Source of the DNA: Rhizomicrobium electricum
Lineage (GTDB): Bacteria > Pseudomonadota > Alphaproteobacteria > Micropepsales > Micropepsaceae
Direction of reading: 5' to 3'
Length of the DNA stretch: 64,000 nucleotides
Assembly (NCBI RefSeq): GCF_011762045.1
Contig: NZ_JAASQS010000004.1
Coordinates: forward strand, 124,001-188,000
Shown: positions 39,128 through 44,214 of the stretch, piece after piece
Layout: each line of letters starts with the position of its first letter
Position numbering within the stretch: the first letter of the stretch is position 1
Made by a program: the position numbers and the translations under genes
Notes under the pieces: generated by a model
What the model was told of the DNA's origin: nothing
Database searches by the model: none
Seen by the model: the letters and a program-made list of their open reading frames with translations, nothing else

Positions 39128-39319
39128 TGTCATCCCCGGCCGAGCCAGCGTAGCGCCGCGAAGGGAAGGGGACCCAGGTATCCAAGCCTGCACGCTTCAA
39201 GCCATGTGCCGCAGTTTCTCTCCCGCTGCGCACTCGCCGACATCGTGCGGTTGACGGCACCTGGGTCCCCTTCCCCTCGTTCGGCTCCCTTCGGTCGCCG
39301 CTCTCGGCCGGGGATGACA
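39128..39319. repeat. Family A palindromic repeat, full copy, within GTA-like cluster
   Basis: Begins TGTCATCCCCGGCCGAG directly after the g3.5 stop and ends CTCGGCCGGGGATGACA 20 bases before the protease start. GGGGACCCAGGT pairs with ACCTGGGTCCCC. Confidence 0.88.
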
Positions 39320-39339
39320 TCTCATTTGAAGGTACCCCC

Positions 39340-41075: not shown

Positions 41076-41255
41076 TGTCATCCCCGGCCGAAGCTGCGTA
41101 GCGGCGAAGGGGAAGGGGATCCAGGTATCAGCACCGTGTGTTCTTCGTGGTGAGCACAATCGGCTTCTAATCGGAAACGATGTGCCGCTGTCTTGACCTG
41201 GATCCCCTTCCCCTCGCTTTCTCGCTGCGCTCGAAAATCTCGGCCGGGGATGACA
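41076..41255. repeat. Family A palindromic repeat, full copy, within GTA-like cluster
   Basis: TGTCATCCCCGGCCGA to TCGGCCGGGGATGACA, with GGGGATCCAGGT facing ACCTGGATCCCC. The interior shares GTATCAGCACCG and a TCGGAA block with the copy at 42554, so these two are the closest relatives. It lies between capsid and connector genes. Confidence 0.88.
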
Positions 41256-41272
41256 TTTATGGGAATGGAAAG

Positions 41273-42553: not shown

Positions 42554-42729
42554 TGTCATCCCCGGCTGAGCAAGCGCAGCGCGGCGAGGGGAAGGGGATC
42601 CAGGTATCAGCACCGCAAAATTTTCGCGGTGGGGCACGATCCGTTTCCGATCGGAAGCTGTTGTCTCGACCTGGATCCCCTTCCCCTCGTTCGTCTCACT
42701 TCGTTCGTCGCCCTCGGCCGGGGATGACA
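42554..42729. repeat. Family A palindromic repeat, full copy, within GTA-like cluster
   Basis: TGTCATCCCCGGCTGAG to CTCGGCCGGGGATGACA, inner arms GGGGATCCAGGT and ACCTGGATCCCC. It starts one base after the g8 stop and ends 19 bases before the tail tube start. Confidence 0.88.
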
Positions 42730-42748
42730 TCTTGAAAGGAGTCTCCCC

Positions 42749-43162
42749 ATGACCGCACAGCGCGGCAAAGATTTGCTCATCAAGATCGGCGACGGTGGCT
42801 CGCCCGAAGTCTTCACCACGGTGGCCGGGCTCAAGGCGACCGGGCTCGCCTTCAACGCCACCGCTATCGACGTCACCAATGCCGATTCCGCCGACATGTG
42901 GCGCGAGCTGCTCAATGCCGGCGTCAAATCGGCGACCGTCACCGGCTCCGGCGTGTTCCGCGACCAAGCCTCGGACGCCACGCTGCGCAGCGTGTTCTTC
43001 GCGCAGAGTCTGGCCAACTGGCAGATCGTGATCCCGAGTTTCGGCATCGTCTCCGGCCCGTTCAAGCTGACCCAGCTTCATTACGAAGGCCCTTATGACG
43101 GCGAGGTGAAGATCACCCTCTCGCTCGCCTCGGCCGGCGCGTTGTCGTTCACGGCGATCTAA
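42749..43162 (+). CDS. Major tail protein (TP901-1 family), GTA g9-like
   Basis: The 137-residue tail tube protein opens MTAQRGKDLLIKIGDGGSPE and has ATAIDVTNADSADMWRELLN, then GSGVFRDQASD, all typical of the TP901-1 tail protein family. It polymerises into the tube around the tape measure. Confidence 0.94.
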   Translation: MTAQRGKDLLIKIGDGGSPEVFTTVAGLKATGLAFNATAIDVTNADSADMWRELLNAGVKSATVTGSGVFRDQASDATLRSVFFAQSLANWQIVIPSFGIVSGPFKLTQLHYEGPYDGEVKITLSLASAGALSFTAI

Positions 43163-43185: not shown

Positions 43186-43198
43186 TAAGGAGAAAACC

Positions 43199-43546
43199 AT
43201 GCCCAATGCCATTCGCGGCGAGGCCGCGCTCGAAGCAGGCGGCAACAGCTATCGCTTGCTGCTCACCCTCGGTGCGCTGGCCGAAATCGAAGACGGTCTC
43301 GGTTTGGCCGATCTCGCCGAAGTCGGCCCGCGCCTGAAACACGCCCGCGCCGCCGATCTTGCCATTGTTGCGGCGGCGCTGCTACGCGGCGGCGGTCACG
43401 CTCTGTCGCCTGCTGACGTGCTCGCTTTGCCGTGCGAGATCGGCGCGCTGGTCGCCGCCGTCGCGCAAGCCTTCGACCGCGCGGGCTTAAGCGGCGAGGG
43501 CGCCGGCCGCCCTTTCGCTGGGACGATCTCCTCGCCCTCGGGCTAG
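43199..43546 (+). CDS. Tail assembly chaperone, GTA g10-like (0-frame product)
   Basis: The 115-residue protein, beginning MPNAIRGEAALEAGGNSYRL and continuing LTLGALAEIEDGLGLADLAE, is the GTA-family tail chaperone. It would help assemble tube protein around the tape measure. At 43510-43516 the heptamer C CCT TTC, in phase for simultaneous slippage, lies ten codons before the stop. A -1 shift there fuses it to the downstream frame (see next entry). Confidence 0.92.
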   Translation: MPNAIRGEAALEAGGNSYRLLLTLGALAEIEDGLGLADLAEVGPRLKHARAADLAIVAAALLRGGGHALSPADVLALPCEIGALVAAVAQAFDRAGLSGEGAGRPFAGTISSPSG

Positions 43547-43680
43547 GCCGTCTCAAGCTCGCGCCGTCCGTGTTCTGGTCGCTGTCGTTCGCCGAATGGC
43601 GTGCGCTGCTGTCACCGCAGCGTGCGCCCGCGCTCGACCGCGCCGGTTTCGAAACCCTGATGAACGCTTTTCCGGATTGA
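43432..43680 (+). CDS. Tail assembly chaperone C-terminal part, GTA g10.1-like (-1 frame)
   Basis: The informative part begins around RPPFRWDDLLALGLG and continues RLKLAPSVFWSLSFAEWRAL, the DUF2376-type tail chaperone. The coordinates include the open frame from a GTG at 43432, but residues 1-26 are an arginine-rich shadow of g10, and no start codon lies between that GTG and the conserved block. It is probably expressed only as a g10-g10.1 fusion of about 160 residues. Length and motif order match the protein that follows g10 in GTAs. Confidence 0.85.
   Translation: MRDRRAGRRRRASLRPRGLKRRGRRPPFRWDDLLALGLGRLKLAPSVFWSLSFAEWRALLSPQRAPALDRAGFETLMNAFPD
43510..43516 (+). promoter_or_regulatory. 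Putative -1 ribosomal frameshift heptamer CCCTTTC
   Basis: CCCTTTC reads C CCT TTC in the g10 frame, a canonical X XXY YYZ pattern. Slippage gives Pro-Phe followed by RWDDLLALGLG in the -1 frame. Lambda G/GT and many tailed phages use such shifts to make two forms of the tail chaperone. Confidence 0.75.
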
Positions 43681-43683
43681 GCC

Positions 43684-44193
43684 ATGGCCACTGAAACCAA
43701 TCTCGACAGCGCCGGCAAGGCGCTCGCCGATTTCGCCTCCGGTCCCGTCGCCAGCGCGGCGGACAGCATCGGACAGACGATGGACCGCACCTTTGGCGCG
43801 ATGGAGAACGCCATCGCCCGCTTCGTCGTTTCGGGCAAGGCGTCGATTGCCGACTTCGTCGCCTCGGTGGTGTCCTCGCTCGATCGCTTGGCGGTGAAGG
43901 ACTATCTCCTCGCCCCGCTCGAAGGCGTGGTCAGCAGCGTGGTGCAATCGATCATGCCGGTCGGCGGCGCCCGCGCCGAAGGCGGACCGGTCGATGCCGG
44001 AAAATCCTATCTCGTCGGCGAGAACGGTCCCGAGACCTTCGTGCCGTCCGAGAGCGGCACCATCGTGCCCAATGCGCGGCCGTCCATCGTCCTCAACGTC
44101 CAGGCGCGCGACGCCCAGACCTTCCTGAAATCGGAAACCCAGCTCGCCGCGATGCTGGCGCGGGCTTTGGCGCGCGGGCAACGAAATTTGTGA
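43684..44193 (+). CDS. Tail tape measure protein (short), GTA g11-like
   Basis: The 169-residue protein begins with a helical stretch (AGKALADFASGPVASAADSI) and has SLDRLAVKDYLLAPLEGVVS near the middle, followed by GENGPETFVPSESGTIVP, the conserved end of GTA tape measure proteins. The brevity is expected for the short tails of GTAs. An ATG at 43684 comes three bases after the g10.1 stop. Confidence 0.9.
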   Translation: MATETNLDSAGKALADFASGPVASAADSIGQTMDRTFGAMENAIARFVVSGKASIADFVASVVSSLDRLAVKDYLLAPLEGVVSSVVQSIMPVGGARAEGGPVDAGKSYLVGENGPETFVPSESGTIVPNARPSIVLNVQARDAQTFLKSETQLAAMLARALARGQRNL

Positions 44194-44214
44194 CATGGGG
44201 AATTTGTGACATGA
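44186..44214 (+). repeat. Tandem 13-base duplication at the g11/g12 junction
   Basis: AATTTGTGACATG occurs twice in direct succession, separated by three bases (GGG). Each unit contains a TGA stop and an ATG. The first supplies the g11 stop, the second the g12 start at 44211. Confidence 0.65.

Follow-up and report, generated by a model that had tools for sequence, protein, structure and literature searches.

The closest described counterpart of the locus analysed here is the G/GT pair of phage lambda, in which a pair of overlapping frames, flanked by the genes for the tail tube and the tape measure, gives a short and an extended product, and in which the slippery heptamer is G GGA AAG. A conserved -1 frameshift in the tail assembly genes of tailed phages was reportedly described by Xu, Hendrix and Duda in 2004. 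The lambda model has many G per GT (PMC5009743, in excerpt). According to passages of PMC3556154, -1 slips occur in chaperones of the phiCbK-like phages; in Caulobacter phage phiCbK (gp93/gp94) a -1 slip on AAAAAAC extends the tape measure chaperone, and gp96, gp97, and gp99 of this phage are distantly related to RcGTA g12, g13, and g15. In bacterial genes, -1 frameshifting of the dnaX type has an upstream Shine-Dalgarno-like stimulator according to parts of PMC3711429, where 7% frameshifting is also given as measured for a phage tail assembly chaperone cluster. For Escherichia coli, the H_HH.U_UU.Y motifs, including C_CC.U_UU.C and C_CC.U_UU.U, are listed among the most efficient (PMC4066793, in excerpt).

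For the GTAs themselves, RcGTA g10 and g10.5 are tail chaperones 1 and 2 in PMC11409702, and the word frameshift is absent from its main text as excerpted. Frameshifting in Rhodobacter capsulatus phages is treated in PMC8601537 and, within the excerpted parts, is unapplied to RcGTA; the main text of PMC7296036 contains neither chaperone nor frameshift. A +1 shift has been proposed for another gene, the hydrolase of a Wolbachia element (PMC10299305, in part), and excerpts of PMC10127595, PMC10885494, PMC9022992, and PMC10721106 hold nothing further on GTA chaperones. We found no description of a GTA chaperone frameshift in the parts searched of the open literature, a scope outside which most subscription papers lie.

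In a stretch of 64,000 nucleotides from Rhizomicrobium electricum (the window, hereafter) we find a pair of tail chaperone frames for which we consider, with a probability of about 0.92, that the second chaperone (TAC) of an RcGTA-type cluster is expressed by programmed -1 ribosomal frameshifting in the manner of lambda G/GT. The basis is the layout, the phase of the slip site, its conservation, the lack of a conserved start codon, and a Shine-Dalgarno (SD)-like element. As in lambda, the two frames overlap, their neighbours are a tail tube and a tape measure gene, and a short and an extended product are predicted; unlike lambda, the heptamer is C CCU UUC instead of G GGA AAG, the cluster is of RcGTA type, and there are relatives with a stop-start overlap. 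The phiCbK case is similar in that a -1 slip lengthens a tape measure chaperone and the phage is one of Alphaproteobacteria, but it is a large lytic phage with another heptamer. With the dnaX type the window shares a heptamer plus an SD-like element, within the 6–17 nt range searched in PMC4066793, but the window's slip would lead to a longer product and no conserved downstream hairpin was seen, whereas dnaX gives a shorter product (PMC4066793, both points from excerpts). RcGTA g10 has the same domain (PF11836) as g10 of the window, and we take g10.5, of the family named rcc01693, to be the PF09550 protein. In sampled Rhodobacterales loci, Paracoccus L136 and Rhodovulum L171 among them, the TAC has a start codon, which points to separate proteins there, the RcGTA locus itself lying outside the sample.

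The chaperone pair and its reading frames

The RcGTA-type head-tail cluster is co-linear and spans 34.6 to 50.1 kb of the window, in the order terminase, portal, prohead protease, capsid, connector, closure, g8, g9, g10, and second chaperone, continuing with the short tape measure g11, DUF2460, hub, NlpC/P60, and megatron protein. Family matches cover both the head side (Terminase_6, Phage_portal, Peptidase_S78, Phage_capsid, TIGR02215, Phage_HCP, Tail_completion_gp17, Phage_tail_2) and the tail side (both TAC families, Tape_meas_lam_C, DUF2460, phiJL001_Gp84_N, NLPC_P60, and GTA_megatron, the last at 1608.9 bits with a cut-off of 800). The NCBI model of the RcGTA tape measure (NF058675) gave 34.1 bits on g11, under its cut-off of 220, and the rcc01693 family model (TIGR02216) gave 43.4 bits on the cluster, under its cut-off of 56.1, and we therefore file the cluster as RcGTA-like, not as RcGTA. 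The chaperone pair is flanked by the tail tube gene g9 (PF06199) upstream and the tape measure gene g11 (PF09718) downstream, and in the whole 4.73 Mb genome PF11836 and PF09550 have one match apiece. The closest relatives by g12 are alphaproteobacterial, L114 having 92% identity among the matches listed.

Two further features of the cluster can be mentioned. A GC-rich dispersed element of ~60–76 nt lies between GTA genes in three related copies (39247–39322, 41182–41256, and 42657–42732), and its 62-nt core has 20 matches genome-wide, so that these are REP-like repeats within the GTA gene cluster. At 44186–44214 there is a near-duplicate, TTTGTGACATG, where g11 ends and g12 begins, which gives more than one candidate start for g12.

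Features of the chaperone locus (positions in the window).
Feature	Position	Strand	Basis or remark
g9, major tail tube protein	42749..43162	+	PF06199 and TIGR02126
Likely ribosome site of g10, AAGGAGA	43187..43193	+	Sequence; 5 nt before ATG 43199
g10, tail chaperone 1 (G-like), 115 aa, frame 2	43199..43546	+	PF11836
Shine-Dalgarno-like stimulator GAGGG	43496..43500	+	Ends 9 nt before slip site
Slippery heptamer C CCT TTC	43510..43516	+	-1 shift re-reads as CCC TTT
-1 frame, Pro-Phe plus TAC (g10.1/g10.5, T-like), 54 codons post-slip	43510..43680	+	PF09550
g10 stop TAG	43544..43546	+	27 nt beyond heptamer, within TAC core
g11, short tape measure protein	43684..44193	+	PF09718 above cut-off; NF058675 below

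The open frame of the TAC (43417–43680) is frame 1, that is, -1 relative to g10, and the heptamer has the phase X XXY YYZ, with CCT and TTC as g10 codons 105 and 106 and the stop as codon 116. Frames, coordinates, and codon positions thus confirm the overlap layout and the heptamer phase claimed in an earlier note made from the sequence. The predicted products are the g10 protein when there is no slip and a 160-aa g10-TAC fusion with a -1 shift. The match of g10 to PF11836 reaches 39.1 bits (cut-off 27.8) and that of the -1 frame to PF09550 reaches 59.6 bits (cut-off 23.4); the latter begins at about the Phe of Pro-Phe-Arg-Trp. The suggested lack of a usable start codon between a GTG within g10 and the TAC core also holds, GTG 43432 being the sole ATG, GTG, or TTG before the core in the window. 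In ten other open reading frames of the window, in-phase XXXYYY heptamers occur 5 times in 3643 codon positions, CCCTTT never, so that only ~0.06 would be expected in the overlap (~43 codons).

Compared with L044, the nearest relative of the window, the TAC past the g10 stop has dN 0.18 and dS 0.54 (43 codons) and g10 has dN 0.10 and dS 0.52 (71 codons); both proteins are under selection, which is purifying in the TAC. The AlphaFold model of g10 (pLDDT 87.6) has as its best viral match a predicted protein named tail assembly chaperone (E 7.3e-4, TM 0.67, the names being automatic), other viral matches being named tail tube protein or uncharacterized. Comparison with PDB folds gave nothing under E 1 for the g10 model, with VIA Z values of at most 2.6, and nothing under E 5 for the TAC model, with a best VIA Z of 2.1. 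Profile searches of PDB sequences gave a best E of 0.17 for g10; a TAC match to HeliScrew4 (E 0.0034) was set aside, with no stretch passing alone. In PHROGs, g10 weakly matches a tail protein family and the TAC matches no family, and none of 50,697 phage records matched the TAC with the window's 58-aa piece as sole query (E limit 0.01). The Pfam text calls GTA gp10 a tail tube protein, the family name of PF11836 being Phage_TAC_11.

Layouts and candidate slip sites among relatives

Relatives were gathered by searching PF09550 in the relatives of the window, in its class and order, and in four other orders, and by searching g12 in named genome contigs and in viral contigs (best 80 of 576 and best 80 of 591, respectively), with 20 further stretches added by coordinates. 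From the Rhodobacterales-like order the sample takes in 36 of 104 match genomes, namely the 30 best plus L008 and five others; nine match places of one PF09550 search and one second place of another were not taken in. Among the 293 loci surveyed, 188 are distinct and have both g10 and TAC, those left out being 85 without a TAC match (43 named, 42 viral), 10 without a g10 match, and 10 duplicates. The sample was collected through PF09550 or g12, and loss of the TAC domain is therefore under-counted. The loci are also phylogenetically clustered, 27 of those with CCCTTT coming from one genus. Layout classes were defined without regard to heptamers, and the CCCTTT class by the heptamer; an own start means a predicted start codon near the junction, with L123 a doubtful member.

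The overlap layout, in which g10 extends at least 12 nt into the TAC core encoded in the -1 frame, is found in 66 of the 188 loci. An in-phase XXXYYYZ occurs within the final 90 nt of g10 in 64 of them (the other two phases, 6 and 5 loci). Loss of the heptamer under a kept frame layout, named beforehand as an observation against the frameshift, is restricted to the remaining two loci (L021 and L250). Since the heptamer is kept across relatives, a chance origin is untenable. A start codon beside the g10 stop characterizes 90 of the 188 loci, as an exact NTGA overlap in 86 of them (ATG in 48, GTG in 32, TTG in 6), and an in-phase heptamer occurs in only 4 of the 90 (out of phase, 2 and 6). Ten loci have neither layout, seven of them with an in-phase heptamer and none with an out-of-phase one, and 22 of the 188 have other frame relations and stand outside the heptamer test.

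Some individual loci deserve mention in their own right. In L033 and L281 an in-phase GGGAAAG coexists with a GTG or TTG that overlaps the stop of g10. TTGA or CTGA junctions, as found in the Methylobacterium loci, are seen in L020, L159, L184, and L009 and suggest rare start codons in stop-start coupling. In L290, g10 runs in frame into the TAC with an odd C-terminal stretch, which resembles a g10 indel and not a designed fusion.

Within the overlap layout, 61 of the 66 loci carry CCCTTT where Pro-Phe begins the TAC core, followed by C (38), T (17), or G (6), and never by A; the six with G should re-pair less well. The Phe codon at the slip is TTT in 61 of 61 (which defines the class), versus 53 of 159 elsewhere in the same TACs. 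In the genus of the window, for which 69 genomes are listed, all 27 with a TAC match have CCCTTT, the six bases being invariant and two loci carrying an inserted codon directly after them. Of seven match genomes in other genera of the family, six have a start beside the stop and one has GGGAAAC. The CCCTTT class appears also in families f9 and f120, in two Hansschlegelia, and in one Hyphomicrobiaceae MAG. Displaced versions exist: in L178 (Phreatobacter) CCCTTTC lies seven codons upstream and the usual place reads CCCTTCC, and in L269 CCCTTTG is at -57 with CCCTTT kept also at -3, past its g10 stop. Other heptamers include AAACCCT (L022, L122 from Rhodobium, L214, and L226), GGGAAAG (L017, L033, and L281), and GGGAAAC (L277, L283, and L288).

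Candidate stimulators and alternative readings

Upstream of the slip site, the anti-SD duplex calculated for GGCGAGGG in the window is -6.5 kcal/mol, a strength reached by none of 44 control windows further upstream. An SD-like 4-mer is present at -24 to -1 in 57 of the 61 CCCTTT loci (absent in 4), versus 6–31 of 61 at 13 control offsets. In this interval the strongest anti-SD pairing has a median of -9.5 kcal/mol, and at 37 of the 61 loci less than 5% of g10 control windows match it. As a control against a simple SD rule we used the own-start loci before NTGA (n = 90), with a median of -5.95 and only 13 reaching the same rank. The frameshift reading thus gains support from an SD-like stimulator that the earlier note did not contain. 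Downstream of the site, a hairpin is weakly indicated: folding against shuffles gave a mean z of -0.95 (s.e. 0.21; controls, -0.05, s.e. 0.08), while plain folding energies are the same as upstream, and a conserved hairpin was not found in the 27-sequence consensus, which has 2 pairs and no covariation.

An obvious alternative would be independent translation of the TAC from the internal start GTG 43432, a codon shared at the same offset with L044, in keeping with the 90 loci of another layout that have a start beside the g10 stop. A conserved TAC start in relatives had been named in advance as evidence against the frameshift, and it does exist in that different layout but not in the CCCTTT loci: in 40 of these 61 the TAC frame is free of ATG, GTG, and TTG as far as the core (56 of 61 lack ATG), and in the other 21, window included, start codons are scattered from -9 to -351. 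An ATG lies six codons inside the core in several CCCTTT loci (e.g., L011 and L013), the window not being among them. With this start unconserved among CCCTTT loci, the SD-like element lying downstream of the GTG, and the conservation of CCCTTT left unexplained, we reject the internal start as highly improbable. It is even harder to believe that the -1 frame is a relic or a chance extension, unexpressed in the overlap layout: the domain is indeed often absent, with 42 of the 69 listed genomes of the genus having no TAC match, but the PF09550 score in the window, the 27 genus loci that retain frame and heptamer, and a dN/dS of ~0.32 in the closest pair all speak against this reading.

The conservation of CCCTTT could also have nothing to do with slipping if Pro-Phe were needed in both frames, as such dual coding forces CCCTTTY. 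Against this, CCCTTTG in six of the 61 loci encodes Leu in the g10 frame, just one of the 67 own-start loci whose motif has Phe shows Pro before it, an in-phase CCCTTT lies at a more upstream position in L178 and L269 with the core at its usual place, and in other loci different heptamers substitute for it, so that we regard dual coding as the sole cause as barely credible. Transcriptional slippage was set aside by reasoning, CCCTTT having no long homopolymer run.

A proposed frameshift in GTA clusters

The lambda G/GT logic that had been put forward for g10/g10.1 is supported by the layout, the phase, and the conservation across relatives, the product being predicted. As we infer the slipping, its frequency, and the roles of the chaperones, most ribosomes would read g10 through to its stop and give the 115-aa, G-like protein, and a minority would be held by the SD-like GAGGG 9 nt upstream of the slip site and would slip by -1 on C CCU UUC, the P-site tRNA-Pro moving from CCU to CCC and the A-site tRNA-Phe from UUC to UUU. 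The slip would yield the 160-aa, GT-like g10-TAC fusion. By analogy with lambda, the G-like protein in excess would coat the tape measure and the few fusions would recruit the tail tube protein g9.

On a g12 tree of the 166 of 188 loci with a usable g12, 10 changes are needed between slip and start, with 67 of 163 inner branches weak. A single origin of CCCTTT, as one clade, is not rejected (p-AU 0.24), and several independent gains of CCCTTT are unsupported in view of this value and the weak branches. Whether the link between GTA chaperones is evolutionarily switchable, passing between a fusion made by a -1 slip (on varied and in some cases relocated heptamers) and a stop-start overlap that gives separate proteins, seems to us an evenly balanced question. 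Were it so, the covalent fusion of lambda would be dispensable in a short tail of fixed length, and GTAs would offer a natural experiment on the reason for the strong conservation of the frameshift in phages.

What is new here is that GTA clusters probably use such a frameshift and that some relatives have stop-start coupling in its place. A -1 frameshift in the tail chaperones is a hallmark of tailed phages, and it would now extend to GTA clusters. A standard gene caller, to which the TAC offers no proper start, may overlook or truncate it, and anyone cloning or editing GTA clusters of the slip lineages should keep the heptamer intact. Because relatives have a start codon instead of the slip, the purpose of the fusion could be tested within one orthologous system.
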